Positions 35,561-56,928 of a DNA stretch of 64,000 bases are shown in pieces (position 1 is the first letter of the stretch; each line of letters begins with the position of its first letter). Origin of the DNA: Anadara kagoshimensis (lineage: Eukaryota; Mollusca; Bivalvia; Arcoida; Arcidae). The DNA lies in assembly GCA_021292105.1 (NCBI GenBank), contig CM037867.1, forward strand, positions 38,857,771 to 38,921,770, given 5' to 3'. The position numbers and the translations under genes are program-made. The notes under the pieces were generated by a model. That model did not search any database. It worked only from the letters and a program-made list of their open reading frames with translations, and had not been told where the DNA came from.

Positions 35561-35566
35561 TTTATT
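35561..35566 (-). promoter_or_regulatory. AATAAA hexamer overlapping the Kv gene A stop codon
   Basis: On the minus strand the last Gln codon and TAA stop are written C-AATAAA, so a canonical poly(A) signal overlaps the end of the CDS. If used, the 3' UTR would be only about 10-30 nt. Its use is not shown. Confidence 0.35.
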
Positions 35567-36467
35567 GATGCATAACACATAGTGAGTCAAGTGACTCGAC
35601 TTTGTCTTTTGTCGCATGCTTTTCTTGTGGCGCAATCTTGTTTGTAAGGCCTTCCTTTTTACGTTTGGAATAAGTATGAATAAACCATTTTCTACATTGA
35701 TAACATGAGTAATGATTCGCAAAGTTTGAAGCAATCACAGCTATAGGGAGTGCAATGATCAAGATACCACAGACAGAACAGAGTGAGCCTATGAAATATC
35801 CGACAGGAGTTGACGGGTGAAAGTCGCCGTAGCCAACAGTCGTCATGGTAACGGTTGCCCACCACATGGTAACGAATATGTCGTAATATAGCGATTCGTT
35901 TGACATTATTTCCCCGTAGAACATTAGGCTTGAAAATACCAGAACAACCATAAAGAAACTGAGAACCATCAGCAGTAGTTCTCTCAAGCTGGCTCGAATT
36001 GCCAACAACAGAACTCTGAAAGCCTTGAACTGTTTCGCTAACCTAAAGATTAGCAGTATTCGGATCATATTGCATGACTTGATAACGAGGTAGAAGTTAG
36101 TCGCCGCTGAATTTTCCATGATCAAATCTTTTTCGATTTCTAAGATCAACGTCATTAACATTATTATAATCAAAATAATAGTGATGACGCTCAGGGGTTG
36201 TTTTAGGAACTTGTGGCGATTCGGACAAAAAATGAGATGTAATATAAGTTCTGTTGTGAAAACCAAAAGACAAAATATCTCCAAGGCGAACAAAACCGGA
36301 AGTGGATCTTCAAAAAGTAAATCCTTTAGTTTCGTATTTTTTATTTCGCTGATGTTGTGGTCTGACAAGTCCGATAAGTATGAATCCGCTCTCAGTTCTG
36401 ATATAGTTGCCAAACAATATACCAATGTACTCAATGCCACTACAAACAGGTAGAAGTAATGCCATGC
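35562..36467 (-). CDS. Kv gene A, exon 2: six-transmembrane voltage-gated K+ channel core
   Basis: Encodes residues 153-453 of the joined protein, a plasma-membrane K+ channel subunit that would act as a tetramer. The exon starts after a clean acceptor (ttttttctgtttcag|GCATGG) in phase 0. Order: S1 (AWHYFYLFVVALSTLVYCL), S1-S2 loop, S2 (CLLVFTTEL, keeping the charge-transfer Phe and Glu), S3, S4 (K..N..R..L..R..K..K at three-residue spacing), S4-S5 linker (RASLREL), S5, pore helix MWWATVTM, filter TVGYGD and S6 (IALPIAVIASNF). The C-terminus is short, about 45 residues, Lys-rich. Unusual: S4 R2 is N and R4 is L, the S3 Asp (normally V-I-D) is T, and the S6 PxP is PIA. M3 MITEs flank the exon on both sides. 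Shaw/Kv3-like by T1, but could be a mollusc-specific group. Confidence 0.92.
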   Translation of the reverse strand, partial: AWHYFYLFVVALSTLVYCLATISELRADSYLSDLSDHNISEIKNTKLKDLLFEDPLPVLFALEIFCLLVFTTELILHLIFCPNRHKFLKQPLSVITIILIIIMLMTLILEIEKDLIMENSAATNFYLVIKSCNMIRILLIFRLAKQFKAFRVLLLAIRASLRELLLMVLSFFMVVLVFSSLMFYGEIMSNESLYYDIFVTMWWATVTMTTVGYGDFHPSTPVGYFIGSLCSVCGILIIALPIAVIASNFANHYSCYQCRKWFIHTYSKRKKEGLTNKIAPQEKHATKDKVESLDSLCVMHQ

Positions 36468-36523
36468 CTGAAACAGAAAAAAACACTCTTTCAACTCTTT
36501 AAGTATAGTTAATGGTATATACA

Positions 36524-36708
36524 GTCAAACCTGTCTATAAAGGCCACCCAAGGGAATCAGTAAAAGTGGCCTTTATAGACAGGTGGTCTTTATATACAGG
36601 TTAGAATAATATGAATAAAGAACAATTGGGGTAAAATTCTACTGGCCTTTATAAGCAGGTGGTCCTAATATAGAGGTCACTTTTAAGTCAGGTTGGAATG
36701 TATATTAA
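36524..36708. mobile_element. MITE M3, well preserved
   Basis: 'gtcaaacctgtctataaagg', 'ccttt-atagacaggtggtc' and, at the right end, 'cacttttaagtcaggttgga'. The sub-blocks are mutually inverse, so the element can fold back. It lies in the gene A intron about 55 bp from the acceptor. Confidence 0.7.
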
Positions 36709-36905
36709 AACATAGGTTTTTGAACCGGAACCACGCAACTTACTGTCGGTAAATCGGGATTTTTTGGCGTCAGTTTCTTTAGTGAATTTTCAAAAAAAAT
36801 ATCTATATGTAATAGCAAGAATGCAAAAGAGAAACTATTCAAGACTAAAATGAATGGAGATGTGCGGATTCAGCTGTCGTCGACAGACGGACAAGGCTAA
36901 CTATT

Positions 36906-37053
36906 AATCTATTATGGACCTCTCCCGAGGGAACTGTTCTCCTATAGTGTTGTCTGTAGAGGTATAGTGACCTCGCCTATCGGCTCGGTCACTATACCTC
37001 TCCAGACAACACTATAGGAGAACTGTTCCCTCGGGAGAGGTCCATAATAGATT
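36906..37053. repeat. Long inverted repeat: 67-bp arms, 14-bp loop
   Basis: Arms 36906-36972 and 36987-37053 pair with only two mismatches (aactgttc against aacagttc, and gtctgtag against gtctggag). The loop centre tcgcctatcggctc can itself pair gcc/ggc. Outer ends are 'aatctattatggacctctcc' and its inverse. A cruciform in DNA or a long dsRNA stem in gene A pre-mRNA is possible. Confidence 0.95.
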
Positions 37054-37568
37054 TAGTACATCACATGTCTTTGTTTTCAAAATTGGAGAGAGAATTAATT
37101 CTCAGATGAATTGTTTACTTTATTCAACATTTGGAATAAATTTCATTCTCCTCAGTTGGGTCGGACATTTGTATAAAAATCGCACAAAATTTTGTTGATT
37201 TGATCGATCTCCATAGATCCAAACTCACCATCAATTTTCCTGGCTCTCAGAGATTCATTTAAAATATTAACCGAATACTTTGTGGCCTCGATCCTTTGTT
37301 TTTTGCTCGTAAATTCGTAAATCGCGCGTCGTCGGATGCCATTTTGTATCCGACGACAACAATAAACAGCGCCACCTAGACAAAGGGAAGTAACTAGCTT
37401 TTGCTTTGCGGGGGGTCACGCGAGGGACTATACTTGGATGTCGGGGGGACTATACCTAGGTATAGTCCCGCTGCTATGCGTTGTCAAGGGCAGATGATTA
37501 CTACACGAAATAGTATTTATGTAGTTATCCAATGATTATTCAAGAAATCAACATGTGATGTACTAAAT
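37051..37568. mobile_element. Small TIR element next to the hairpin, unclassified
   Basis: 'atttagtacatcacatgt' at the left is the exact inverse of 'acatgtgatgtactaaat' at the right, giving a ~518-bp unit. It contains a hairpin (TCGTCGGAT ... ATCCGACGA, about 37333-37358) and a perfect 24-bp palindrome at 37446-37469 centred on CCTAGG. The left repeat overlaps the end of the 36906-37053 hairpin. No ORF, and target duplications are not clear. Confidence 0.55.
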
Positions 37569-37854
37569 ATATATAGCCGTTCTTTGGTACAATAACTAGA
37601 TACACAATATTAGATATCGAAAATGGATAGTAGTTCACTCGACCATACCCAATAGAATAGCTAAAAGTTATTTTGTATTAATATTGAAATTATGTAAAAT
37701 TAAAATCGATATTAGGCGATTAAATATTTAAATGGAATCCAATATGTTTTCATTAACATCAAACACGTTTCAGATGGATAGCTCATTAACTTTTAATGCT
37801 GCAATAAAATTACATTAGTGACAAGTTGTTCAATATTAAAACAAGCTACTCGCA

Positions 37855-38190
37855 AATAAATTGTTTATTCAAGGATGCCACAAACCTTGGCTTATCAAGC
37901 CCCTCACAAAAGTTTTATGGTCGTCCTCTAATATGGCTGTCATCACAATATTTTTGAAAAGTATTACATCTCTGCATCCAAACCAAAATTATCCTGGATA
38001 TATTTGACGTCCTATAATCACCCCATGGTCCTCTGAATTTACAATTCTGTAACACTTACCCTTCCGGAGCACCCGGACTCACTTCCCTGGTGGAAGTTCA
38101 CACATTTAACTTAATTTACCATTTGCAAAGTTTTTACTTTGCTTTCGGATTGCGATTTTGACATGGAGGCATAGATTGATATGTTATGGT
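37855..38190 (-). mobile_element. Dispersed element D copy
   Basis: Minus-orientation copy: 'cttggcttatcaagcccctc', 'aaaagttttatggtcgtc', 'cttccggagcacccggactc', 'acttccctggtggaagttca', then one inverted 49-bp unit ('tttttactttgctttcggat'). Confidence 0.75.
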
Positions 38191-38379
38191 TGTTAATGAC
38201 ACGCTGTACCAATATTGACATGATGTAAATTGAAGATCGATAATTAAGAATTAACTATTTAAGTGGAGTTCAATATGTTTTCATCAACACCAAAAACGTT
38301 TCGTTAATTAATTCTTTATACTTGTAGTAGTATGGTCAATAAAAATACACTTAGGGGCAAATTGGTCAATATATAAAGT

Positions 38380-38607
38380 GTCATGTGCTGATTTTGAATT
38401 TTTATTAGAAATAATGCATTCAAAATCAGTTGTCATGTGCTGATTTTGAATTGTCATGTGCTGATTTTGAATTTTTATTAAAAATAATGCATTCAAAATC
38501 AGTTGTCATGTGCTGATTTTGAATTTTTATTAAAAATAATGCATTCAAAATCAGTTGTGCTGATTTTGAATGCATTATTTTTAATAAATATTCAAAATCA
38601 GCAGATG
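38380..38607. repeat. Tandem cluster of 42-bp hairpin units
   Basis: Each unit starts CTGATTTTGAAT and ends ATTCAAAATCAG, so it folds on itself. Three units run in one direction (starting 38388, about 38460 and 38514), spaced by 'ttgtcatgtg' and one orphan half-unit; a fourth lies inverted at the right. Nested self-insertion or slippage at a hairpin would both give this. Confidence 0.85.
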
Positions 38608-38662
38608 GCAAAAGCAAGCTGTTCGCAAATAAACTGCACGTTGTCTCGATGATATTGCAAGC
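38608..38662 (-). mobile_element. Dispersed element D, left part split by hAT-like insertion
   Basis: 'aaaagcaagctgttcgcaaa' and 'gatattgcaagcc' are followed by the insertion. The copy resumes at 40447 with 'gacttatcatggtcctcaaa'. The continuous copy at 60150-60490 reads 'gatattgcaagcctaggctt' across this point. Confidence 0.7.
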
Positions 38663-39121
38663 CAGGGGTGGGTAACTCGAAGCTCTCTTAACAGTTACGA
38701 ATACTTAACGCCTACTTACGAAACTCGTAGAATAAAATCGGGTAACTCGAAACAGTCGTAAGTAAGGTAGTCATCGTAACGTGTCCTTAACTTTACGAAA
38801 ATCAGATACCTCCCTTAGACTATACTTAGCGTAACATTGCACATTCAAACAAGAGATTTACACATTAATTGCATGTGTTCCAGTTATTATTTAATTTTGA
38901 CAACATCAATTTAAGTTTATTTGATCATGTTGATAAATTCTTTAAAACAAATTAGTCATTAAAGTGACTGTGTTTTTAAAACAACAATGTCTTATTTCAA
39001 AATTATGATCATTAATAATATTGTGATAATAATTATTAAATTAAAATTTAATCGGGATAATTTTCAACTTGTGCTTAAAACCGTAAGCATTTGTTTTACC
39101 TTGAATCATTTAATATTATAT

Positions 39122-39172
<51 letters not shown>

Positions 39173-39827
39173 TGTGTGTGTGTGTGTGTGTGGTGTGTGT
39201 GTGTGTGTGTGTGTGTGTCGTAATCTTTATGGAAAATAAGATTAATATTTATAAATGACGTAAAAATCTACATGTGTAGCATTTCATACTGCATCAAAAT
39301 TGTTTGTAAGTAATTCCTTCTCTATGGATATTTTTCACAGTAGAATTTAACCATTTCAAGCTGAATACTGCTATTTTAGCGTCTTTAGTCAAAATTATCC
39401 TATGTCTGTGTGCATTTTCTTTCCATAATATTTAACAAAGTAACTTGTGTATGACACTGAATCATTTATGGATTTTAAATTTCAATAGATTTCATGTAAA
39501 CTACAGATCTGCGCGAAGCATGCTCTCTTGAAAACTACAGAAACTGTATAATTTATTTAAATTAAAAAAAAAACAATTTTCGACGAATTTGCTTCAAGGA
39601 TTTTCCATTTTGAAACTTGCTTATTGTTATATAACACGTATTTTGTTATTAAGAATGCTTATTTAATCAAAATAAGATAAAGAAAACAAGGGAATGTCAC
39701 AATGTTATTAAAAGTCACAATGAAATTTAGCAAACGTATCTACATGTATCCTATATACCATACTTTTCATATTCGAAAATGAACCAACCTAACTTCCGTG
39801 CCAATTTCAATATTTTTAGATTCTGAT

Positions 39828-39892
<65 letters not shown>

Positions 39893-40446
39893 CATTGGAA
39901 GTATCTGTGAAACTAAATGCAAAAATGTGAAAACATAGATAAGTGCAGGATTTTTTCGTAGTGTATGGGAACTATAATTTAATTTCACTCTGAAAATTTC
40001 CCTATTTAAATGCACGTTTTCAAACTACTACATTACATAATTAGTTCATGTTCGTATATTGAATTTTATGGGGTTAACGGTTTCAAAATTCAACAGGCCC
40101 ACTTTGTAATCCAGTGTTACTTTTTTTACCCTGTTCGAAGCAGTTGCTATTTAGTTAGTGACTTTAATTTGCCGAATTTCTTTTGACTGCCATTTAATTA
40201 TTTTGTCAAGTAATAACAGGGTAACCGAATATTAGAAGAAACTACGAAGAAATAAAAGAAAAACGCTGTATATTACAGAATATACGAACGAAACGAATTC
40301 GTAACTCTACACGTAAATCGTGATCGTAAGTACACGTTAAGTACGTTTCGAGTTACCCGTGTAAATTTGTCGCAGTATAAACTTACGATCATCGTAACAT
40401 CTACTTACGAATCATATTTAAGATTGGTTCGAGTTACCCACCCCTG
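38663..40446. mobile_element. hAT-like non-autonomous element, 1.78 kb
   Basis: The terminal repeats 'caggggtgggtaactcgaa' and 'ttcgagttacccacccctg' are exact inverses (19 bp). Subterminal zones at both ends repeat the words 'cttacga' and 'cgtaagt' many times, as hAT transposase-binding zones do. The interior is AT-rich with GA and GT microsatellites (39126-39218, 39829-39888) and no ORF. It is nested in a family D copy; the exact target duplication is ambiguous. Confidence 0.75.
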
Positions 40447-40720
40447 GACTTATCATGGTCCTCAAAAACATTTTTATGGTCGTCATCACTATATTGATGA
40501 TAAGTATCATGTCTCTGTCAGTCTGTATCCAAAATTATCCTGATTTTTTTTTTTTTTTGACGTCCAATAGTTCCACGTTCCTTTGATTTCACAACTAGCC
40601 AGACAGGACCGGAGCTCCCGGACTCGCACCCAATGCAAGGTGGAAGTGTTTAACTAAATTTGCCAGTTTCAAGGTTTTTACTTTGATTTGCGATTGTGAT
40701 TCGGACATGGATTGCTCGAC
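40447..40720 (-). mobile_element. Dispersed element D, right part of the split copy
   Basis: Continues 38608-38662: 'aaaaacatttttatggtcgt', 'gaccggagctcccggactcg', 'tttttactttgatttgcgat' and 'ttcggacatggattg'. Confidence 0.7.
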
Positions 40721-40959
40721 CATATTTGCACATTGAAGTCATTCCCCCGATAGATTTGATAAACATTATGCGGTAATAATATTAAAATGATGTAAAATGG
40801 AAATTGATATTTATGAATTAACAATTGAAGTGGAATTCAATATGGTTTTTTTCAGTAACATCAAAAACATTTCAGATGAATTGTTGATTATCTCTTAATA
40901 CGAACAATTTAGTCAATATAAATTACACCAGGGAAAATTTGGTCAATATATAAAGCAAG

Positions 40960-41290
40960 TTATTTGCAAATACATTGTTGATTAATGGATATTACAAGCC
41001 TAGGTTTATCGAGGTCCTCAAAAACTTTTATGGCCGTCATCACTATTTTTGCATATAAGTATGGTGTCTCTGTTTGACGCTCTGTAGTTTCATGTTTCTT
41101 TTATTCTCAAATTTATATTTTATTGTGGCGCATGTAGCTAACTAGACAGTAGGAGCATGCACTTCCGGAGCACCAAGTCTCACTTCTAAGGTGGAACCTC
41201 ACATGCTTAGCTTCATTTGCTGGTTTTCAAAGATTTTATTTTGCTTTTGCGATTTTGATTTGGACAGGGATTAGAATTATGTTTCACGGT
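40960..41290 (-). mobile_element. Dispersed element D copy
   Basis: 'gttatttgcaaatacattgt', 'ggatattacaagcctaggtt', 'gaggtcctcaaaaacttttat', 'cttccggagcaccaagtctc' and 'gattttgatttggacaggga', ending about 175 bp inside the intron from the gene A donor. Confidence 0.7.
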
Positions 41291-41378
41291 GGTTTTTAAG
41301 TTTTGGTTATCTTACCAACAGGTTAAAGTACAAAACATCTTAGTTATCTTTAGCGTTTTTTTTTTGTTGTTATAATTT

Positions 41379-41382
<4 letters not shown>

Positions 41383-41418
<36 letters not shown>
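41383..41418. repeat. (GA)n microsatellite near the Kv gene A donor
   Basis: About 17 GA units lying ~50 bp into the intron. The long ORF that continues past the donor reads it as Ser-Leu repeats, which is not real protein. Confidence 0.9.
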
Positions 41419-41466
41419 AAAAGAAGTCATTGTTAAGCCCACACTAATTTTTATATTATATCTTAC

Positions 41467-41922
41467 CAATGCAGAATTAGAATGCCCTGGGTTTTCTAAA
41501 TTTTTCCATATTTCATTGCCAGTTTCCATGCCATTGTCCCGCCCGTGTTCGGACTCGTATATCTCCACTTCTTGTTTCAGGTTTTGTCTAATTTCCTTTT
41601 CCTCTTCGAACTGACAAAACACTTTCCAGCAACACTCTGAGACTATATCTGATGGGATTTCCCAGAATTCCATTTCTTGTCGTATTATTGCGCTACAGAT
41701 GTGCAGCGGCATGTGTAATTCGCCGGAAGAAATGGCGTTTATTATAACGTTAAACGCTTCCGGGTCACGATCAAAGAAATATTCCTTCTCCACAGTATCA
41801 TAGTAATCCGATAGTTGACTTAAATCCCTTAGCTTGGTGTTGGGTAAATTTTCTAATGTCGACTGAAGAACTATGAAGGAGCGTCCACGTATGTTGAATT
41901 TGATTCGTTTATCTTTTGTCAT
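41467..41922 (-). CDS. Kv gene A, exon 1: T1 tetramerisation domain
   Basis: Encodes residues 1-152. The ATG at 41922 is followed at once by the T1 fold (IKFNIRGRSF, FFDRDPEAFNVI), so the N-terminus is short and has no room for an inactivation ball. T1 sets which subunits co-assemble. The zinc motif H-x5-C-x20-CC is complete (H-M-P-L-H-I-C, then E-C-C-W), which marks Kv2/3/4-type rather than Shaker T1 domains; CCW favours Shaw/Kv3. The residues after T1 (GNEIWKNLENPGHSNSAL) form the linker to S1. The exon ends at TTG|GTAAGA in phase 0 and joins the exon at 35562-36467. Divergent paralogue of 52972-53424. Start codon context and 5' UTR are not independently confirmed. Confidence 0.9.
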
Positions 41923-41949
41923 TTTTTTAAGATTAAGGAGCCACGATTC

Positions 41950-43250
41950 ATGTATTCATTTTCTGAAGTTGAAGTCGACAGTTGTCAAAAACAATCACGA
42001 ACACTGCAAACAACAAAATTTAAGAAATTAGTTCAGAATTTCAGAAATGAAATTATTTTTTTCTTTTTGTTATGAAAAAATGAAAGAATTAGACACTGCG
42101 TAATTTACATTTTTCCAAATCAATTAAAATGTTCTATTTTTTTTAAATTCAAGTTATAGAATGAAAAAAAGAAAAAAAAAAAAAACAAACAAACTTTTTA
42201 TAAAAAATACAGTCGTATCAAGCAACATAATGCATCGTTCTGGCGTAGAGATGCAGATGTTTTTGTGCGACATCCATAATATCATGACATCACTGAGAGT
42301 CCGGCAATCGTTTCATGCAAAAATAATAGAAAAGATCTGACCAATCAAAATGCTTGAAACAAAGGAGAACCTTTGGTATTTACCTCGTCAAACTTAACAA
42401 AAACACCAGCCGCTTTGCAACATCAGCAAAAACGCAGAATAGAATGTTTAAAATTGAAACACTTCTCATTTCACATTATGTATCAAGTTATAACTATTTA
42501 ATTTGAATTAAAATCGTAGAGTAATGGTGTCTAACACCTCAGTCAAGATTATTTCAGTCATCGAGACGTGGAACTAATTCATATAAAATAAAGCTGAAGA
42601 AAGAATACACAAAAACATACCAGCTCCAAATTTTGAAAACGCCAACCTTTCAATATCTATGAGGTTTGTAAAGTTTTATAAAAAAGAATTAAAGACCCCG
42701 GTTTCTAAAATAAAACATATTTTTCTAATTTTTCTGATAAAGTGGTGAAAATATGACATAACACATTTAACCAAACAAACTCCGTCTCTCTCCATTTCAC
42801 TCTTATATTTTCATACCTTTGAAATTAATGTCTTTTGTCCGTGTCCTGTAGTGTCTTGTCTTCATACCCGAAATAAGAGTTTCTATAGAAATGTATCGCA
42901 TATAAAGGACAGACAACTCTGTTATCGATCCCATACATTTGTGTGACAAAGATCCAAGTCAATAAACGCTTTTAACTATGATAATAACTTAGATGAAGGT
43001 ACTTTAATTTCCAGTTGCTTCGTCCCTGGGCATTTAAAAATAAGGTAATTTATTTGTTCAAACATTATTTATTTGTCAATCAAAGGAATCAAATAGGCAA
43101 ACGACATTGACCTGTCCGCTTGACCTTTTATTAGCAACATTCATATAAGATGATCCATCTAATACATGGGTAGTGTTAGGATTTCCAGTTAATACATAAA
43201 CAATGCATATTTCCCTATGATGAAGACGAAAAAACAACTGTGTTTCCCTA
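41950..43250. other. Upstream of Kv gene A; no feature recognised
   Basis: AT-rich sequence that should contain the gene A promoter and 5' UTR. I cannot identify a TATA box or initiator with confidence; poly(A) tracts lie near 42165-42185. Confidence 0.45.
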
Positions 43251-43261
43251 TGTATAAATGA

Positions 43262-43615
43262 GAGTCCGCGGTAGCCTAATGGATAAGGCGTCAGTCTACA
43301 AATCCAGAGTATCTCACCGCTGTGAGTTCGGGTCCCGCTAAGACCACATGTGGGAAAGTGGATTTTCCTTGCCTCCTTGCCGTTGACCTTTGCTCGTTCA
43401 CTGGTATCAGTATAATGTGACTGGGGGAGTGATACGCTTGTCTGCGGCGTACTGACTCTGTAAGCTAGCACCTTAAAGTCGCCCTGAGTGCGCGCTAGTA
43501 CAAGGCAGACCAAAAACCACACTTGTACTTCACATGCATGCACATTGATTAATCCATATAAATTATTTAAAGCAGTTCTCGTCGCAAATAGCTGAAAAAT
43601 TGCAACATTCAACCA
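43262..43615 (+). mobile_element. SINE with Arg-like tRNA head, second family
   Basis: Head 'ccgcggtagcctaatggata' with 'aggcgtcag' (box A as in tRNA-Arg) and box B 'gtgagttcgggtcccgc'. The body ('cgctcgtt'-like, 'ctgcggcgtactgactctgt') differs from family S. It ends near 'tgcaacattcaaccaacca', a short CAAC-like tail. The 178-codon minus-strand ORF over it is spurious. Confidence 0.7.
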
Positions 43616-43638
43616 ACCAACTTATACATAAATGTACT

Positions 43639-43882
43639 GGTCCCGGTTTCACAATCATTTCTTAGCTTAGATTTTCCTTAACTTAAATCTGACAAATTTG
43701 AAAAAAGTTATAATTTTGTTAATTTTTAAATATTCAGGAATTGATGGTGTCCCTTTGTAGATCAGTCAAAGCTTATTACAGCTATAATTCAATTTTATCA
43801 AAAATTTTAATTGTAGTACCATTAAATGTTGCCAAAATTTACCAGCTTAAAGTTAAGGAATGATTGTATAACCGGGGCCAGG
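43639..43882. mobile_element. MITE M1 copy
   Basis: Opens 'ggtcccggtttcacaatcat' and closes 'gaatgattgtataaccgggg'. The ends are inverse complements. Confidence 0.75.
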
Positions 43883-43898
43883 TCCTTAATAAGTATAA

Positions 43899-44245
43899 CC
43901 ACTGCGGTAGCTCAGTCGGTAGAGTGCTCGCTCCGTAAGTGGGAGGTCGTGGGTTCGAACCACGGCCGGGTCTGACCCAAGACTTGAAAGTGGGTAGTGA
44001 CTGTTCTTTCGCCAAGCACTCGGCATTACGAAATGAAAGTCACGGTTCTTTCGGATGAGAACTTAAAATAAAAGAGGTCCCGTGTCACGGTGGGCTTGGC
44101 ACGCTAAAGAACCTTGCTGTATAATGCCATAAGCGCAACGCACAGGCAAAATTTCTGCACTTTCGCCTATAGCTGGCGACGTCTCGATATAAGTGAAATA
44201 TTCTTGACTGGGACGTTAAACACCATTACTAACTCACTTAATAAA
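43899..44245 (+). mobile_element. SINE family S, best-preserved copy
   Basis: Head 'ccactgcggtagctcagtcg' then 'gtagagtgctcgc' (box A), and box B 'gtgggttcgaaccacgg' with a perfect GGTTCGAACC core. Body: 'aagtgggtagtgactgttct', 'ttcgccaagcactcggcatt', 'gtcccgtgtcacggtgggct', 'tgctgtataatgccataagc', 'tatagctggcgacgtctcga'. Tail 'gactgggacgttaaacacca'. About 347 bp. It is the reference for other copies here and for the satellite at 21.4-24.8 kb. Confidence 0.9.
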
Positions 44246-44510
44246 AATAAATAAAAGGTCAAGAAGACAAGTCAATGTTGTTTGCCTATATCCTTCCACT
44301 TACAACAAACACACAGTTACCGGTAGACAAAGGATTCAGAAACTAGTGTATTATTGTAAAAAAGAAATCAATATTTTTTTTCAAAAGAATTGACACAAAT
44401 ATATTGTTTCAAGTGAATTATTTAATAACCGTTATATAACGGTTAATACAACATACTGTTACAACAAAATCTATAAAAAAATAACTACCGGTATTACCCG
44501 GGATATGTAG
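44246..44510. other. No gene recognised
   Basis: AT-rich; contains the small palindrome 'aaccgttatataacggtt' near 44428. Confidence 0.5.
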
Positions 44511-44514
44511 AACA

Positions 44515-46950: not shown

Positions 46951-46952
46951 TA

Positions 46953-49900
46953 TAGTCGAGTAGGCATTTTATGAACCTAGAAATGTTCATTCCTATGAAG
47001 TTTTTTTGCTGTTTTGTTTTCCTTATGGGTCCTTGAACAAAACTAACTTAGTTGCCCTTCGGGCAAATTTGGGCAACTTGCACAATATACAGAAATCCAA
47101 AATGGCCGCCAAACGTCAAATTAAAATACATACTGCGATATAAAATATCTTCCAATAGGTTGTAATATATTCTTTTATATGTTTTCAGGCATGAGGAACC
47201 CATGTCTGGTGTTAATTTTTACATACGGAACACTTAACTCACACAATAAGCTATAAACACAAGATGACCGATGGACGCCATCTTGAAATATTGATTTTGT
47301 ACAAAAACAAATTTATAATAGATTGCCATACATCTTTGCAGGGGTTTTTAGGCACGGGCAACTCAATTCTGGTATTAGTTTTACATTAAATACCATCATG
47401 TCTATAATGACCGACTATATGTGTCAAATAACTTTTTACCCTTGTGTAAAAATTCAAACACCCCCTTTCTCCAAAACAGTTACAAAATTATATACAGAAT
47501 TAGTTTTAGGCAAGCATGTCCTTGTGTGTTGCACTTATTATTTTGTGCCTTACATTGACATAACACGACAAAGAAGTTCTTTGGGCGCTGGGTATCCTTT
47601 CGCTATAACATGTAATGAGAATTGATCTTTGAATTTCAATCCGAAATTGGTTATCATCTCATACTGCTCAGGAGGATCTTGACTGTCGGTACCCTTTCAC
47701 AACATTAACTAAAGGTGCGACAACAGAAAATGGCGTTTAAAACAAAGTTAAAACTATAAGGCTTTGGTGTTACTTATGAAGAACCTATGGAAACGTCACA
47801 GTTTTCCCTGCTGGCTGGCAATACAGAACAACAAAGAATGGTTCAGATCCCATAAAATTATTTGTGAACTTTGTTGACCACATCAGCTAAATAAGGAGAA
47901 TAAGAGTTTGTAATTATGATGTTGTATCACAACCACTATATAACAGCTCAAGATATCTCGAACGAAGTCCATGTCCCTAAGAACATTCACGCCTGGTGGT
48001 TCAAGACATCTCGATCCAAGACCATCACACTTACAGTGTGCATGCCTGGCTGTTCAAGACATCTCGAACCAAGACCACGACACTGAGAGCATGCATGCCT
48101 GACAGTAAAATACATCTCAAACCAAGACCACGACACTGAGAGCATGCATGCCGGACAGTTAAAGACATCTCAAACCAAGACCACGACACTGAGAGCATGC
48201 ATGCCTGGCAGTTAAAGACATCTCAAATCAAGACCATAGTTAGTTGCAATGATGTTCAAAAACTTATATCCTATTACTCCATCTGTACATCACAATATTT
48301 TCATGCGTATACACCCAATACACTAGGGAAACAAAAACATATGTGCCGTCAATCAGCACACAAATGATATCATGACCTGTCTGTGCAGCCCGGAGAACAT
48401 ACGATACCATAGTTATGCCGGATTCATCATGGCCGAATCCACAATCGTATACATATTGCTGTGGTGTTCCCTCTGTCCTGGTTTCTTAGAATATATGAGA
48501 TGGTATTTGTCGAAAAGCAAGATTTTCTTTGAAGTGTCTGGGTACCAATACGACCTTTTTTGGATTGATGCAATGAAATCTGATGGGTTAACCCCATGTG
48601 ATCAAGAGATGTGGTAGAAAAACTGTGAATCATTGTGATTGTGAGTTTTGGGTGAACGAACTCCACAAAGCGATTTGTCTAGAGCTGACTTAATTCCTTT
48701 TTCAATGACAACTATTTTCTACCAATGTCAAAAAAGGAACAGAACCGATTACAAATGCAAGCAGAAACTATGCTCAAACTGCCCTTGCTGTCCAAACAAA
48801 GATAACCAAAGAAACATGTTTCCAAGATCAATAACTGGCTTTGTTTTTGCATCTTGACAGCGTCGCTTTGAAACGAATTGTCTTTATCATCTATACAGAG
48901 CCAATGATGGCATTGTAAAACTCATCAGGTAGACCGGATTGTACTCTTATGCCATCTTCACATCCATTGCAACTGAATCCACCACATTGACACATTTAAA
49001 GCAATTTTGTAAAAAATTGCCTTATAACCTGTTTTTATAATACATTTTGGTCATATATATCCAATAAACACCGAGGATTAAACTCTTTGAGTTATGGTTC
49101 GTATCACACTCAGAATATATTCATTCCAATCGATCAGAGAAGTACCAATCTACCCACTAAAAGGATCAGGCTAGAGAGTTATGCCTTTTTCAAATTTGAT
49201 AGCAGTTTGTACTCCAAACTGGTTAACCAAGACAGCATCCTAATAATCACTATGGTGTCGACATGCAATATCCTCCACAGGACACGCATGTGTTTATAGC
49301 AGACACTGATAAAGTTTACCAGCATATTGCACATGTCCAGCATCCAATACAATTATTTGTTGGGTTTGTTAATCAGGATACAAATAGTTTTGGTGGTATA
49401 CAGTGCAAGGGTATTATTTTCTGCAGTCCAGTATAATTTATACGTGAAACAGCAGTTTCAGGTCTAGATTTCGAGATGTTGCTTAATGGTAACTTAGGTA
49501 AGTTGAGACACCAGAAGTAAGCCAAATCTTCACTGTGCACTACCTTTTCACTTATACCACATGAATGAACATGGAAGTCTGTATTTATAACGTGTGTCTC
49601 ATAGCGGCCATTTGGAGTGAAATAGTTAATTAAAATATCAAAACTATCATAAAAAAAAAAAAAAAAAAAAAAAAAAACGTTCTACTGCTCAACTCCAACC
49701 AAACAATTTGTGGAAGGTTGTGCATTATCAGTGACAGATTTTGCTGCAGATTCCCGAAACCATAATACTTCATTACATGAAGTAATGTATCAATGTTTAT
49801 GTAAAAGTCGTATCAATTCACTGCTGCCAAAGATTATGTTTTTAATTTCTTATTAAAAGGAATTGTGCGAGCCTCATTTATGACCTTTTAATCAAAACGT

Positions 49901-50299
49901 ATCAAGACGCATGGTTAAGTTACACAGCATTGAATGTGATATGCTGAGTTTATCTAATTATAATAAACCCTTGTCTGGTCAAAATTGTTAAATATACTTT
50001 CAAAATGTCCCATGTGTTAAAAACAACAACGGAAATGAGTCCCTCATCCCTAAAAACATATAAAACGGTATATTGCAAGCTATTGTAGAACAATTTTTAC
50101 AAAAGATAGATTTTCAATATGGCGTCAGGCAGCCATCTTGGATATATGCAAATTATTCAATTTGCCCAATGTTGCCTTTAGGGCAACTAACTTAATTTTA
50201 CTCTAGGGACCCTATAGAATACAAAACAGCAAAAAAACTTCATAGGAAAAAACATTTCTAGGTTCAAGTATTGAGTATATGGGAGTGTCAACTCGACTA
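46953..50299. mobile_element. 3.3-kb TIR element T1, copy 2 (non-autonomous)
   Basis: Starts TAGTCGAGT, ends ACTCGACTA and is flanked by TTA on both sides (46950-46952 and 50300-50302). It is nearly identical to 7021-10325 along its length. Differences seen: one extra ~58-bp internal unit, a longer poly(A) tract at 49652-49677, loss of a G-rich insertion present near 9070 in copy 1, and an extra 'tatttataacgtgtg'-like insertion near 49582. No transposase ORF. Confidence 0.88.
47945..48235. repeat. Tandem repeat inside T1 copy 2
   Basis: Five ~58-bp units built on 'gacatctcgaaccaagacca' and 'gagagcatgcatgcc', one more than in copy 1. Confidence 0.8.
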
Positions 50300-50440
50300 T
50301 TATACTTATATAACTGTTCTGTGCAACTTTATTGGTACATATCACATGGCACCCCGTGAACTGACAGAACTGGACTAATCCTATACCAAAAGTTAATTGT
50401 GTTAATCGGATCAGTCTTTATTTATTGACTTATAAAACTA
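50300..50440. repeat. End of the ~58-bp array after T1 copy 2
   Basis: 'acttatataactgttctgtg' and 'catggcaccccgtgaactg' continue the array interrupted at 46953. Confidence 0.65.
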
Positions 50441-50576
50441 ATTTTGGACACAAGAGTAGTTTTGTGATTTGAACTGTTAGTTGGAACATTTGAATATAAA
50501 TAATTAAATAAAATATTGAAAAAGAAATAAATGGCTTTATACTTCGAATATGAAGTTTATGATTTGATGACAATTA

Positions 50577-51200
50577 CAGTACATGCCATTTCTAAAGTTA
50601 AGTACCAAGCTAACGAATTAGTACCGAATCATCCCTGGTTAGCTTATATCTCGGCAGCTTTCATGTACAGTACAGACCTGTCGAAAGTTAAACATTTAAC
50701 TCACGAATGAGTGCCTAAACAGCAACCCTGGTTAGCTAATATCTCGGCAGCTTTCATCTACAGTACAGACCTGTCAAAATTTCAACGCACGAATTATGGG
50801 TGAATCGGTAGCTCATTTCAGCCCTAGAGAGCTATATCTCGACAGTTCTACTATATATCTCTCGGCAGCTTCATGTCCGCTAGATATTAATATATCGAGC
50901 ACTTTGCAGCCGAAGCCCGACACGTTTTCGTTCAGTGTTGAACTTTCGACTGGCTTGTACTGTATATCTCTTGAAAATTTTTTGGTCATTTGTTTTTCAT
51001 ACCTGACGAAAATTTTACACTAAACTATCGAATTAGTGCCGAATCCGCAACAAATCGCTACTAGTATATCACGGTACCTGCTCACTGTCTTTTAACAGCT
51101 TTATGACCACTTGTTATCCATACCTGGGCCACTCGGTAGCCGACCATTCACTCCTCTTCATTAGCTCAGTGTTAAACTTTCGACAGGTCTGTACTGTATG
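50577..51200. mobile_element. Cluster of M4 MITE copies
   Basis: The end word 'cagacctgtcgaaagttaaa' or its inverse 'gttaaactttcgacaggtct' occurs near 50680, 50770 and 51170. In between, 'tatctcggcagctttcat' and 'cgaattagtgcc' recur. At least three partial copies overlap. Confidence 0.65.
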
Positions 51201-51239
51201 TTTTTAATATCTTAATTGTCAATTTACAATTGCTACAAA

Positions 51240-51314
51240 TGTTAAGTACGATGCAGGCCTGTCGAAAGTTTATCACTGAGCAGAGTCGAAGCTCCCTTGT
51301 CAAGTGACAAAGAT
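51240..51314. mobile_element. M4 MITE truncated by a SINE
   Basis: 'caggcctgtcgaaagtttat' to 'aagtgacaaagatatgtata', then the SINE begins at 51315. Confidence 0.5.
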
Positions 51315-51662
51315 ATGTATAGTCGAGTTGAGTAATAGTGTTTAACGTCCCAGTCAAGAATATTGCACTGATATCGAGACGTCGCCAGCTATAGGCGAAG
51401 GTGCAGAAATTTTGCCTGTGCGTTGCGCTTATGGCATTATACAGCAGGGTTCTTTAGCGTGCCAAGCCCACCGTGACACGGGACCTCGTTTTTTTAAGTT
51501 CCCATCCGAAAGAACCTTGACTTTCATTTCGTAATGCCGAGTGCTTGGCGAAAGAACAGTCACTACCCACTTTCAAGTCTTGGGTCAGACCCGGCCGGGG
51601 TTCGAACCCACGACCTTCCACTTACAGAGCGAGCACTCTACCAACTGAGCTACCGCAGTGGT
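51315..51662 (-). mobile_element. SINE family S, minus strand, near-full
   Basis: Plus-strand order: tail 'taatagtgtttaacgtccca', body 'tgcgttgcgcttatggcatt', head 'ctaccaactgagctaccgca'. Box B region 'gttcgaacccacgacc' is intact. About 348 bp. Confidence 0.88.
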
Positions 51663-51711
51663 ACAGGAGAGAGAGATAGGTATAGCTATTTGCTGTAAAG
51701 GTGTTAGAAGA

Positions 51712-51924
51712 TACTGTAAACGTATTAATTTTCGCGGTGTACTAATTTTCGCTTATTTCGCGGTTGTTCGTTTTGCACAAAAATTAATACCATGTGAAAA
51801 TTATATTATGCTATTTGTTTTTTAGTGCATATATCAAAAAGGCAAAAATTAAACTACGCGGATATGTGTAAATTTTTCAATGCCGCGAAAAGAAATACAC
51901 GCGAAATTAAATACGTTTACAGTA
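51712..51924. mobile_element. MITE M2 copy
   Basis: 'tactgtaaacgtattaattt' to 'aaatacgtttacagta'; the ends are inverse complements. Confidence 0.8.
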
Positions 51925-52450
51925 GCAGCTGTATATACAGTGTCCCATAATATATGTCAGTCACACTTTAAACTTCTGGGGGCCAAGATGAGCTAAACAT
52001 TTGGCACTAATTCATTAGTTAAGTGTTAAATTTTCGACAGAACTGTATTGTATTGTGTCCTTTTATCCAGAGCAATTACCGTTAATGTTTGAAACACAAA
52101 ACTCGATCAAACCGAGTACAAATGGATATTTTGCTTAATACATATAATTTTGTTTTTGTAAAGGTTAACCCGGACTGTTCGAACTCGTATAAATATTTGT
52201 ATTCATTTATTGATTTTGTTAAAATAAAATGTACAGATTTGTAGCTTTATTCTGAAATATTAAACTATGTCTGTAAAATCCCGTAAGGTAACATTAAAAT
52301 AAAATTTTCGCCTTTCTATATTTACAAATGAAAAGGTTTTCATAAGTTTGAAAAGAATTAAAATAACATAGTTTTAAATATTTAATAGGTATTTTAAAAT
52401 CTTTAATCCCCATCCGACGTCCTGTATGAAAGATTTGGAATAATTCCATG
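51925..52450. other. No gene recognised; M4 end-fragment near 52010
   Basis: 'ttcattagttaagtgttaaa' and 'ttttcgacagaactgtattg' are an M4 right end. Otherwise AT-rich. Confidence 0.5.
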
Positions 52451-52451
52451 T

Positions 52452-52675
52452 ACAACACAGACCTGTCGAAAGTTTAACACTCAGCTAATGAGAAGAAGCC
52501 GAATCCTGACTGTCGAGTGGCCGAGATACGGATTGCTTATGGCCGAAAAACTGCTGAATATATGGATACCAGCTGCTGAAATTCTAAGGAGATACGGGTG
52601 ACGAGATGAGCAGCCGATTCGGCGCCAATTTTACAACAGTGTTGAACTTTCGACAGGTCTGTACTATAGACGGTA
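52452..52675. mobile_element. MITE M4, complete unexpanded copy
   Basis: Left 'cagacctgtcgaaagtttaa', right 'gttgaactttcgacaggtct'. Interior 'gactgtcgagtggccgagat', 'acggattgcttatggccgaa' and 'atggataccagctgctgaaa' correspond to the single unit that became the 62-bp array at 33559-34165. Confidence 0.75.
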
Positions 52676-52971
52676 ATTGTTATTATATTTTAAATAAATA
52701 AATAAATCATAATTTGACCTGTTCAGAATAGAATGTAGGCAAGCATGTCTGGTGTCCAGTAGATCACTGGCTGCTTATTTGTATTAATTTGGTGTCAATT
52801 TCAATCTTTTTCGATTAAAATGTGTCTAAGTTAAAACGTTAAGAGTGATATTATAACAAAAATAGACGTCAATTTTAAGCAGGAAGAAGGGAAACATATT
52901 TCGGTGAAGATTTGAAACTAGAAATTATGTGCAAAGCCAAGTAGTTTCTGAAATTTCGGAATAAACCGGAA
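52676..52971. other. Upstream of Kv gene B
   Basis: Immediate 5' region and probable 5' UTR of gene B. No clear TATA box or initiator is recognised; the sequence just before the ATG is 'gaataaaccggaa'. Confidence 0.45.
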
Positions 52972-53424
52972 ATGGATACGGTGACACTTAATCTAAGAGG
53001 GAAGCGGTTTGAAGTGACTCCGGATTTATTGAGAGCTATTCCGTACACCACTTTAGCAAGATTGGACAAATCTTCGGAATATTATAATGTAGACAAAGAC
53101 GAGTACTTCTTTAACCGAGACCCGGAAGTCTTTAACGTCATTTTAAACTATCTGGTTCTAAAAGAGCTCCACATACCGAGGCACATTTGCGGAGGTATTA
53201 TCCGGCAAGAATTCAAGTTCTGGAGAATTCAAGAACAGAACATCTCTCAATGTTGTTGGCATACATTTTATTCTTACCATGAGGATAAAAGTATTTTCGA
53301 AAAACTAGAGAACTTGATGATCACAGATGAAACAAAAGAACACCATGAGAAATTTTGTGACGGAGGCATTAGGATGACGTTATGGAAAACTTTGACGGAG
53401 CCTAGTCATTCGATTGTAGCAATG
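52972..53424 (+). CDS. Kv gene B, exon 1: T1 tetramerisation domain
   Basis: Encodes residues 1-151 and starts at an ATG in the context ggaaATGG. The T1 fold begins within the first few residues (VTLNLRGKRFEV, FFNRDPEVFNVILNYL), so there is no N-terminal ball. H-x5-C-x20-CC is complete (H-I-P-R-H-I-C, then S-Q-C-C-W), as in Kv2/3/4-type T1 domains, with a Shaw-like CCW. The linker ends RMTLWKTLTEPSHSIVAM, parallel to gene A (EIWKNLENPGHSNSAL). The donor is ATG|GTGAGA in phase 0. It joins the exon at 55924-56928 to give 485 residues. Gene A lies head to head on the other strand. Confidence 0.9.
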
Positions 53425-53575
53425 GTGAGATAGCATTTACCTCTTTATTATACCTCATTAAAAAAATACGACGCTATCTGTAATTTGATTGGATCGTTGG
53501 ATCATGTGATCAGGGTGGAGAAAACATCGTGTATCCCTCTGAAAACATCATATCCCACCTCTTCGGAACACACCA

Positions 53576-53599
53576 TGACGTCACAATGATATGACGTCA
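53576..53599. promoter_or_regulatory. Pair of consensus CRE-like sites (TGACGTCA)
   Basis: TGACGTCA occurs at 53576-53583 and 53592-53599, 16 bp apart centre to centre, about 150 bp into the gene B intron. The palindrome is the full CREB/ATF consensus, so two perfect copies within 24 bp are notable. Activity is inference. Confidence 0.4.
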
Positions 53600-53773
53600 T
53601 CGGCGGAGAATCGGTGACGACGTTCTAGCGTTTGCCTCCGATGAGTTCCGATAGGAGAAAAAGCAATGAATCGGTGAAGGAATAATGTTTTCAGGCTGTC
53701 TTTTTTAAAATATTTTTCTTTCTTTCTCTCTTTCTTATTACATTGGTTATGTTTCGGTATAATAAACAATTTA

Positions 53774-53906
53774 TTGCCTTTGTGTGAGGGAGATATGAAC
53801 ATTTGTTCACCCTTAACAAGTCACATATCTCTCGGGCTTCGCCCTCGGGAAATATGACTTGTTGCGGGTGAACAAAAATGTTCATATCTCCCTCACTCAA
53901 AGGCAA
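53774..53906. repeat. Long inverted repeat: ~65-bp arms, 3-nt loop
   Basis: The left arm 'ttgcctttgtgtgagggaga'...'cacatatctctcgggc' pairs with the right arm 'gccctcgggaaatatgactt'...'tccctcactcaaaggcaa', with scattered mismatches around 'ttc'. Weaker pairing extends a few bases outward. In gene B pre-mRNA this would be a strong dsRNA stem. Confidence 0.9.
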
Positions 53907-53973
53907 TGAATGTATAATATAACATTGATGAATGTCAATAATGTTTACGAACTGACAAACATTCTTACGCTAG

Positions 53974-55503
53974 GATCTTGCTCGGCGGTCATGAATATCA
54001 GGGCGCCGTGGTTCAAAAGCGCACGTTTAGACCACGTGTCCACCAAAACCCTGATTCTTTACTTTAAAATACATAGCAGTGATATTCAAAATTCAGTTCT
54101 AGGCCCGAGTTTTAAAAAAGATTTTTAAAAAATCCATTTAAATTGACTGGAGATTTTTTGTGCAGTGTTTTGTCACCATTAAGGTTTTATAGATAGTGAC
54201 TTTTAGATATTAGTGAAATGATCTTGGTTTGAGCACAAAACAGTATTGCACCAACCACAGTATAAGAAAAAAATGCAACTCAAACATACGACCTGGCAAC
54301 AGCCAAGAACACAATTTAATACAAGTCAATGATGAAACAGCCGAATATGGCCAGACCAAAAAGGACAGGTACTTATTTGGACCACTTAACACTACACAAT
54401 ACAAGTCAGAGCTAAAACAAAAAAGTCAACAGCCAACGAAAACAAGAACACAAAAACACGACAAGCCAAGACAAAACAAAAATACAAACAGATATTTGGA
54501 TAAATTAACACACCACAATACAAGTCAATGATAAAAAAGCCACAGTCAAACATAACATTGCAAGACAAAAAAAGGCAAACACGTATTGGGACCAATAACA
54601 CAAACTAAAACAAGCCGATGATAAAGCAGTCAAACACGACACGCCAAGACAAAACAAAAAAGACAAACAGATATTTGGATAAATTAACACAACACAATAC
54701 AAGTCAATGATAAAAAAGCCACAGTCAAACATAACATTGTAAGACATAAAAAAAGGCAAACACGTATTGGGACCAATAACACAAACTAAAACAAGCCGAT
54801 GATAAAACAGTTAAACACGACACGCCAAGACAAAACAAAAAAGACAAACACAAATGATTCTTGACTTGTGTTCCCTAAATGAAATGTGCTTAGTTCAAAA
54901 GTATGGAGATCATCTTGCTCGGCGGTCATGAATATCAGGGCGCCGTGGTTCAAAAGCGCACGTTTAGACCACTTGTCCACCAAAACCCTGATTCGTTACT
55001 TTAAAATACATAGCAGTGATATTCGAAATTCAGTTCTAGGCCCGAGCTTTAAAAAGATTTTTAAAAAAATCCATTTAAATTAACTGGAGATTTTTTGTAC
55101 AGTGTTTTGTCACCATTAAGGTTTTATAGATAGTGACTTTAAGATATTAGTGAAATGATCTTGGTTTGAGCACAAAACAGTATTGCACAAACCACAGTAT
55201 AAGAAAAAAATGCAACTCAAACATACGACCTGGCAACAGCCAAGAACACAATTCAATACAAGTCAATGATGAAACAGCCGGATATGGCCAGACCAAAAAG
55301 GACAAGTACTTATTTGGACCACTTAACACTACACAATACAAGTCAGTGCTAAAACAAAAAAGTCAACAGCCAACGAAAACAAGAACACAAAAACACGACA
55401 AGCCAAGACAAAACAAAAATACAAACAGATATTTGGATAAATTAACACAACACAATACACGTCAATGATAAAAAAGCCACAGTCAAACATAACATTGCAA
55501 GAC

Positions 55504-55536
<33 letters not shown>

Positions 55537-55640
55537 AACATGTATTGGGACCAAGAACACAAACTAAAACAAGCCGATAATAAAACAGTCAAACACGACA
55601 CGCCAAGACAAAACAAAAAGGACAAACACAAATGGGAACA
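53974..55640. repeat. ~937-bp tandem segmental duplication in the Kv gene B intron
   Basis: 'tcttgctcggcggtcatgaa' at 53976 recurs at 54913, and the following ~700-750 bp match nearly base for base ('tttagaccacgtgtccacca', 'aaacatacgacctggcaaca', 'gccaacgaaaacaagaacac'). Copy 2 has a poly(A) tract at 55507-55532 where copy 1 has seven A's. Confidence 0.9.
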
Positions 55641-55900
55641 AATTAACAGAAAATAAGACAATACAATGATAAAACAGCCACTGGCAAACAAAACATAACA
55701 AGACAAAAATACGAAAAATTAGGACCAGTTAACACAAAACAATACAGGATAATGTTAAAACAGCAACACAAAACAAGACAAAAGGGAAAAAATACATATT
55801 GGGACAAATTGACACAAAACAATACAAGTCAATGATAAAACAGCCTCAGCCAAACAAAATAAGACAAAAAAGACGAACACATATGGAGACCAATTAACTA
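54290..55900. repeat. A/C-rich minisatellite in the intron
   Basis: Irregular ~90-bp units: 'caatgataaaacagcc', 'gccaagacaaaacaaaaa', 'acacgtattgggaccaatta' and 'acacaaaacaatacaagtca'. They continue to within about 20 bp of the acceptor, so the 3' end of the intron is almost pyrimidine-free except for 'tggtttttttattttccag'. Confidence 0.8.
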
Positions 55901-55923
55901 TAAATGGTTTTTTTATTTTCCAG

Positions 55924-56928
55924 ATATGGCACTACTTCTTCCTACTTGTTGTGTTCATGAGTTCCGTGGTATTCTGTTTATGGACACTTCCGGATTTCCG
56001 AGTCCCGCCATATTTGTATGAACCGCCACCAATGCCTCCCCCGGATCCGAACTCCACCAGTATTCTGAACGAAAAACTGTTACACCTTGTTATTTTTGAC
56101 GCTATACCGGAGATAATAATTTTGGAAGGAATTTGTTTATTTATTTTTACCTTTGAATTGTTCCTGAATTTTATCCTTTGTCCGGATAAAACTAAGTTCT
56201 TCAAGGATTCATTGAATATTATACATATAGTTGTATTCGTCATAATGGGCGGCGCATATAGCATGGAATTTCTTAAAGGTCAGATGGCGGGAAAACCAGA
56301 GTTGGGATACGTGTACTTTGTCGTGAAAGGCCTAAACATGGTCCGGATATTTTTGTTTATAAGGTTTGAGAGAACCTTTCAGGCTTTCAGGGTGTTGTTG
56401 CTTGCCCTGCGTGCTAGTGTCAAAGAACTTTGCCTGATGTTTCTGGGGTTCGCGGTTCTGACGCTGTTCTTCTCAAGTGTCATATTCTATTTAGAAATTT
56501 ACGGAGATACTTTCTACAATATATTCATTTGCATGTGGTGGGCCATTATTACCATGACAACGGTTGGTTACGGTGATGTATCACCAACGACAACAGCCGG
56601 ATATATAATTGGCGTTTTGTGCGCAACTTCCGGTATTCTACTAATCTCGATGCCAGTGGCGGTAATTGCATCAAATTTTTCTTCGTATTACTTGGTGCAT
56701 CATGACATCACGATGCACAAAGAATCGGTAGCCAGAGGGGCCAAGAAGAGCTGTTTGGAAAAACTAGTAAGGAATTTACACGGGCAGACACTGAATTGTA
56801 TGCAACTTCTACCCAATGCAACTGAAATATCCTCGGATGAAAACAAAAAGCCGAAAGATGAAAGCGAGTCAAAAGAAATCCGCAAACAGGCAAACGGATC
56901 AGCTAAACCTCCGCTTCCGGAACATTAG
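55924..56928 (+). CDS. Kv gene B, exon 2: six-transmembrane voltage-gated K+ channel core
   Basis: Encodes residues 152-485. The exon starts at ttttccag|ATATGG (IWHYFFLLVVFMSS, start of S1), so it begins 27 nt upstream of the open GTG/ATG stretch. A Pro-rich S1-S2 loop (PPMPPPDP) follows. S2 is CLFIFTFEL with the charge-transfer Phe and Glu. S3 has H in place of the usual Asp. S4 is K..N..R..L..R..R..Q, the linker RASVKEL, the pore MWWAIITM, the filter TVGYGD and S6 ISMPVAVIASNF. The C-tail of about 95 residues is hydrophilic and ends PPLPEH, with a Glu/Lys-rich stretch. R2 to N, R4 to L and the loss of the second Pro in PxP are shared with gene A. It may be a pore-forming Shaw-like channel or a modulatory subunit. 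Confidence 0.92.
   Translation: MWHYFFLLVVFMSSVVFCLWTLPDFRVPPYLYEPPPMPPPDPNSTSILNEKLLHLVIFDAIPEIIILEGICLFIFTFELFLNFILCPDKTKFFKDSLNIIHIVVFVIMGGAYSMEFLKGQMAGKPELGYVYFVVKGLNMVRIFLFIRFERTFQAFRVLLLALRASVKELCLMFLGFAVLTLFFSSVIFYLEIYGDTFYNIFICMWWAIITMTTVGYGDVSPTTTAGYIIGVLCATSGILLISMPVAVIASNFSSYYLVHHDITMHKESVARGAKKSCLEKLVRNLHGQTLNCMQLLPNATEISSDENKKPKDESESKEIRKQANGSAKPPLPEH

Follow-up and report, generated by a model that had tools for sequence, protein, structure and literature searches.

Two neighbouring voltage-gated potassium (Kv) channel genes, here called A and B, raise the question of what a Kv subunit does when its selectivity filter is intact and its voltage sensor and gate are not canonical. 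They lie in a 64,000-nucleotide stretch of the genome of the bivalve Anadara kagoshimensis (assembly GCA_021292105.1, contig CM037867.1, hereafter C11, positions 38857771-38921770), which is referred to as the window; positions are counted from its first letter unless the contig is named. Both genes are intact, purifying selection acts on both, and both lack the second proline of the S6 gate, the R4 charge of the S4 segment and the aspartate of S3. By parsimony, the second proline was lost once in a large, putatively Shaw-type clade, and R4 and the S3 Asp were lost jointly in its four-gene branch. With reasonable rather than high confidence, we read A and B as Shaw-type regulatory (silent, 'R') subunits with a weakened voltage sensor. 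Published work is cited by PMC number.

Structure, voltage sensor and gate of genes A and B

Gene A is encoded on the minus strand by two exons. Exon 1 (41467..41922, 152 codons) contains the start codon, the T1 (BTB) domain with its zinc ligands and a Shaw-type CCW motif, and the linker to S1, and ends in a GT donor, while exon 2 (35562..36467, 301 codons and a stop codon) follows an AG acceptor and encodes S1–S6 and the C-terminal tail. Gene B, on the plus strand, likewise has a first exon with start codon, T1 domain and linker (52972..53424, 151 codons) and a second with S1–S6 and the C-terminal tail (55924..56928, 334 codons and a stop codon). Each intron is of the GT-AG type, in phase 0, and lies directly before S1. 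The joined proteins of 453 (A) and 485 (B) residues have no internal stops and share 41.5% identity, and the probability of the exon 2 open frames arising by chance is about 4e-10 for the 301 codons of A and 3e-11 for the 334 codons of B. The Pfam families BTB_2, Ion_trans and Ion_trans_2 score above cut-off in both, and the combination of a T1/BTB_2 domain, a six-transmembrane Ion_trans region and a TVGYGD potassium filter identifies both as members of the Kv (Shaker) superfamily. A tblastn search of the window with both proteins returned A and B themselves and two weak matches (E 0.09 and 0.11), with no third Kv copy.

The sensor and gate residues were compared with seven reference channels, five of them conducting and Drosophila Shaw, Kv9.3 and Kv5.1 among the seven, and the S4 register was anchored on the R-A-S motif of the S4–S5 linker. 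Positions R1–R7 read K N R L R K K in A (36024..36080, minus strand) and K N R L R R Q in B (56326..56382, plus strand). The S3 Asp site is occupied by a Thr codon in A (36180..36182, minus strand) and a His codon in B (56224..56226, plus strand), and the PxP motif of S6 reads PIA in A and PVA in B, the second Pro being replaced by Ala in both. These readings had been made in the original prediction and are confirmed; for S4, the linker anchor, a register scan and the family alignment agree, the last giving the same register for both genes as the anchor. In the ungapped scan, shift 0 ranked first in 10 of 10 comparisons (two genes against five channels), and no corrected alignment with Arg at R2 or R4 emerged. 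For B the margins were small (16 against 14 with Kv3.1 and 22 against 20 with Kv4.3, the runner-up at +3 both times), and the HMMER alignment of B with Kv3.1 opens a three-residue gap inside S4; the S4 numbering is therefore less secure for B than for A, by one helical turn.

R4 is Arg in all seven references and Leu in A and B. Two further positions that are constant in the seven references have changed, the S2 Arg to His in A and Asn in B, and the Lys at K5 of S4 to Arg in both. Altered voltage sensing had been predicted from R2 as well as from R4 and the S3 Asp, and the R2 part of this argument does not stand. R2 is Ser in L016, the canonical Shaw gene of the same genome (family loci are cited by L numbers), and presumably also in Drosophila Shaw, so that an uncharged R2 is ordinary for Shaw and is dropped from the argument. 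Judged by these alignments, the unusual S4 loss is that of R4, not R2. Inner S4 charges pair with acids of S2 and S3, and the S3 Asp normally holds the inner S4 charges; from the loss of R4 and of this Asp, altered voltage sensing may soundly be deduced. The TVGYGD filter, the pore WW, the S2 Phe and Glu, and the T1 zinc ligands (His/Cys/Cys-Cys) are unchanged in both genes, as had been noted originally. Of the seven invariant S4 columns (invariant in the seven references or in the five conducting ones), five are lost in both A and B, compared with one of 18 in T1 and one of 14 in the turret and filter, indicating that change is focused on the sensor, the sensor–pore seam and the gate.

The S6 gate (Shaker positions 473–485) is PIAVIASNFANHY in A (35709..35747, minus strand), with P475A, V478A and F484H, and PVAVIASNFSSYY in B (56653..56691, plus strand), with P475A, V478A and F484Y; the combination of P475A and V478A makes the activation gate degenerate in both. 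Such a softened gate, together with reduced S4 charge, could also belong to channels that conduct alone with weak voltage dependence and carry a leak-like Shaw current, being partly open at rest. The intact filter and pore WW would permit this, canonical Shaw already lacks charged R1 and R2, V478 is one of two residues proposed to form the Shaker pore seal, and P475D makes Shaker constitutively conducting (PMC3440756). However, conducting Kv channels did not tolerate Ala well at the PxP prolines (PMC3440756), and alpha subunits are reported to be free of gate degeneration (PMC9989356). We consider independent conduction of this kind unlikely.

Two further observations concern these genes. The intron of gene B contains two 0.8-kb repeats (53975-54751 and 54912-55709) that are 92% identical; about 200 bases separate the second from exon 2. 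The Rfam model K_chan_RES, a potassium channel RNA editing signal, matches the pore–S6 coding DNA of A (35724-35837, minus strand) at 51.9 bits against a cut-off of 51, and that of B (56563-56676, plus strand) at 45.6 bits, below the cut-off. Many pairs of the model are non-standard in these matches; an RNA editing hairpin was accordingly rejected, and the matches probably reflect coding homology.

The Kv family of the genome and the origin of the residue changes

A search of the assembly (1.115 Gb, 36 contigs) with exon 2 of gene A returned at least 79 matches, the search scoring about 100 candidates, and sensor and gate residues were tabulated for the 78 of these 79 sites that were fetched. 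The family counts are inexact. Exon 2 of A as query favours A-like genes (a Kv4.3 query recovered mostly the same sites), a number of the loci are fragmentary, and L029/L074 and L032/L076 are each possibly copies of one gene. After merging of copies, at least 42 Kv-type loci remain, and 34 of the 42 lack a full PxP gate: both prolines are kept in eight, the second is lost in 14, the first in 19 and both in one. The eight complete gates include those of L065, L025, L016 and L093, nearest to Shaker, Shab, Shaw and Shal, respectively, which indicates that normal partner channels exist in this genome; the others are L030, L033, L064 and L071. L016 and L030 are the canonical candidates for a conducting partner of A and B.

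Among the 40 genes with a readable S4, R4 is uncharged in four: A, B, L003 and L004. S4 could not be read in L077 or in the Shaker gene, the frame of which stops short at that point, and L045 has Arg at R4 in the family alignment and Leu in a pairwise alignment of another register. Loss of R4 is combined with loss of the S3 Asp in A, B, L003 and L004 only. The same four genes form a clade (support 99/96) inside a 14-gene clade (99/96) in an unrooted 37-row tree from which the S4, S3-Asp and gate columns had been left out. On the whole tree, parsimony counts two losses of the second Pro, one in the 14-gene clade, where all 14 genes show the loss, and another in the pair of vertebrate silent subunits. 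The R4 charge and the S3 acid each disappear in one change, on one branch and in the identical four genes, compared with three changes for the first Pro and five for V478. R2 is uncharged in all 14 clade genes, in many others and in L016. With R4 and the S3 Asp each lost only once, their coincidence is one case and not a statistical result.

Elsewhere in the family, a second large set of genes has lost the first rather than the second Pro of PxP (TIP, VIP, LIP and similar), namely L013, L014, L019, L023, L027-L029, L032, L034, L036, L037, L040, L042, L044, L066 and others. L018 and L020 have an SVGYGD filter and a Tyr at the S2 Phe site, and L043 has an MGGYGD filter. No relative was confirmed among 221 pattern matches in viral contigs.

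Second genomic copy and selection

Most of the window has a collinear counterpart at C11:39.53-39.583 Mb, the matching blocks being about 82–98% identical in DNA, with gaps in the window at, for example, 4.5-10.9, 19.9-23.6 and 46.1-50.3 kb. This second copy (C11:39530001-39600000, L049-L055), 670 kb away, is either a retained second haplotype or a large duplication; many family members occur in near-identical pairs on the same chromosome, which fits haplotypes retained in the assembly. The ratio of nonsynonymous to synonymous substitution rates (dN/dS) between copies is 0.162 for A (14 nonsynonymous and 22 synonymous changes) and 0.031 for B (2 and 17), far from the values near 1 that the original prediction had named as evidence against a conserved subfamily. 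A and its second copy differ at three of the first 434 residues, none of them in S1–S5. Of 13 other family pairs, nine have dN/dS values of 0.055–0.349, one has a dN of 0 and three are identical. Between A and B themselves, pN is 0.38 and pS 0.78, saturated values that were taken only as a sign of constraint.

These ratios bear on the possibility that the genes drift toward loss and that their odd residues reflect relaxed constraint. The second copy of B has eight indels of 1–2 nucleotides, several in short single-base runs, which as read would break the gene; extra partial 3' copies of A, 78–88% identical and some with stops, lie beside the second copy of A (C11:39560923-39562081, in L052 and L006); and exon 1 of L003 reads in three frames. 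All three would suit decay. Against it stand the low dN/dS of A and B and of the other pairs, and the S4 and gate residues common to four diverged genes, and progressive loss is in our view very improbable. The indel rate in the second copy of B is similar to that of nearby noncoding DNA (4.7–9.7 per kb), and so many fresh indels in a protein under strong constraint point either to errors in the assembly or to a loss that is very recent. The proposal of a conserved subfamily rather than decaying copies is supported by the four-gene clade and the dN/dS values, with the indels of B and the frames of L003 as counter-evidence.

A and B are arranged head to head, and this divergent arrangement is conserved in the second copy (A' minus, B' plus), as might be expected if the two were obligate partners of each other and kept as a pair. 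However, about 11 kb including a 3.3-kb repeat separates their starts, no such neighbour lies in the 30 kb examined around either of the two next-closest relatives, L003 and L004, and mammalian Shab-type regulatory subunits are said not to form channels with one another (PMC3519636). Obligate pairing therefore appears quite improbable. The repeat between the starts (46953-50299) is the second unit of a 3.3-kb direct repeat, 95–97% identical to the first (7021-10325) and 40 kb from it. Neither site has a match of more than 300 bases in the collinear second copy, and the repeat thus looks like a mobile element inserted on the window copy only. Tandem repeats of 145 bp with TGACCTTGACCTTTGA-like motifs occupy 4563-5658, 6562-7017 and 21980-23012.

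Probable Shaw affinity and putative regulatory function

The best T1 match in the PDB is Shaw 3kvt for both proteins (78.6 bits for A and 74.7 for B, compared with 74.2 and 72.5 for Kv4.3). Shaw/Kv3 is also the best reference for all five other clade loci whose T1 was read (the copy of A, L003, L004, L007 and L010), and as controls a Shal locus matched Kv4.3 and a Shaker locus Kv1.2. A nine-row tree groups A and B with Shaw (79/91) without rejecting Kv1, Kv2 or Kv4 placements. In the unrooted 37-row trees, canonical Shaw shares its side of one branch with the whole expansion, this branch being unstarred (93/94 and 91/89). A and B are here assigned to the Shaw type with moderate confidence.

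As regulatory subunits, neither A nor B would form a working homotetramer alone. Each would join tetramers with a conducting Shaw subunit via its Shaw-type T1 domain, supplying a voltage sensor without the R4 charge and the S3 Asp and a gate softened by P475A and V478A. The mixed channel would carry less gating charge, its kinetics would differ, and its voltage dependence would be shifted or shallower. In this model, the silence of each protein alone, its partner and which way the mixed channel is changed are inferences, as is the part ascribed to the S3 Asp.

The regulatory reading draws on the gate. In Nematostella and mouse, 43 of 44 regulatory subunits carry nonconservative S6 gate changes, which are reported to be absent from conducting (alpha) subunits (PMC9989356, citing Pisupati 2018). 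Vertebrate silent subunits also lack the second Pro of PxP (PMC4623978; PMC3440756). Gate degeneration is accordingly presented as a marker of regulatory subunits (PMC9989356), and by that marker A, B and most of the family would be regulatory. With 43 of 44 regulatory subunits carrying a degenerate gate and conducting ones reportedly lacking it, a modulatory role, which the original prediction had suggested, is the best reading of A and B.

Several observations weigh against the regulatory reading or its Shaw component. The T1 margin of Shaw over Kv4.3 is slim, at 4.4 bits for A, 2.2 for B and 1.9 for L010, and no T1 domain was found in the 6 kb examined upstream of the canonical Shaw gene L016. 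Three other placements of the A and B pair are not rejected in the nine-row tree, namely next to the Kv2 group (p 0.376), Kv4 (0.424) or Kv1 (0.327). In the 37-row trees, a starred branch (97/95 and 96/98) parts the expansion from all canonical channels, Shaw included, and the expansion rows are thus not shown to be nested within Shaw. Vertebrate silent subunits (Kv9.3 and Kv5.1) presumably keep normal S4 charges, which would put the S4 change outside the known silent signature. The indels in the second copy of B also belong here. Moreover, gate changes are described as a marker and not a cause of the regulatory phenotype (PMC9989356).

A bolder extension concerns the whole family. It is possible, though doubtful, that up to 34 degenerate-gate Kv genes, mostly on the Shaw side, constitute a set of silent subunits equal in size to the one implied for Nematostella. 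In the four-gene branch without the R4/S3-Asp pair, the sensors would then move with much reduced charge in mixed channels or leak cations through the gating pore.

Comparison with known systems

Kv9.3 and Kv5.1 presumably keep R2–R6 of S4 and the S3 Asp, unlike A and B, and in the 37-row trees their neighbours are Kv2.1 and L025, not A and B. Membership of A and B among the vertebrate silent (KvS) subunits was rejected, since a clade of A, B and KvS received a p-AU (approximately unbiased test) of 0.037 in the nine-row tree; a place with the Kv2 group as a whole was not rejected there. A search of the PDB with the Kv9.3 sequence found no silent-subunit structure among the best 60 of 193 sequences. 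The vertebrate silent subunits Kv5, Kv6, Kv8 and Kv9 resemble A and B in the lost second Pro and the retained S2 Phe (PMC4623978, PMC3440756); they differ in belonging to the Kv2 branch.

The flatworm channel N.at-Kv3.2 of Notoplana is, like A and B, Kv3-type and has other residues at two basic positions of S4, spaced six apart, and it conducts through the gating pore (PMC2443804). With Asn at R2, Leu at R4 and no S3 Asp, the voltage sensors of A and B might similarly leak cations as an omega current. However, the replaced positions are R1 (His) and R3 (Gly) in the flatworm channel, where single S4 mutants restore a delayed rectifier, and R1, the gating-pore blocker in Shaker (PMC2443804), is still basic (Lys) in A and B. 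Leu at R4 is moreover bulky and hydrophobic, and such a leak seems improbable. An assignment of A and B to the N.at-Kv3.2 type by S4 pattern was rejected as well, with R1 (Lys) and R3 (Arg) both kept.

Canonical Shaw, as represented by L016, shares with A and B the uncharged R2, with an uncharged R1 of its own, and A and B have a T1 of Shaw type; L016 differs in keeping R4, the S3 Asp and a PVPVIV gate. Expansions of Shaw genes are known in number from lophotrochozoans, with 13 in the limpet Lottia and nine in the annelid Capitella (PMC3519636). They are the same kind of expansion and perhaps the family of A and B, a likeness drawn from gene counts only: in the excerpt of that source they are counted and placed in a tree, and gate and S4 residues and function are not described. 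Term searches of the open-access literature found no regulatory Shaw subunits of molluscs or annelids among the titles and abstract openings listed. If the regulatory reading is true, it would suggest a role for these expansions. The disappearance of both R4 and the S3 Asp from a single clade is moreover a natural charge-pair experiment in proteins kept by selection, through which the contribution of the pair to voltage sensing and to folding can be tested directly.

Silent Kv subunits are reported from vertebrates in the Kv2 branch and from cnidarians in Shaker, Shal and Shaw, and tested regulatory subunits are described in all three of the latter for Nematostella (PMC9989356). A Shaw-derived silent set of the present size, if true, would be a further and apparently independent case in another animal. 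The Nematostella Shaw R-subunits resemble A and B in being Shaw-type, in their degenerate S6 gate and in forming part of a large, lineage-specific expansion alongside canonical alpha genes (PMC9989356). They differ in being cnidarian and reported as functionally tested (PMC9989356), whereas A and B are known from sequence, in which R4 and the S3 Asp are missing as well.

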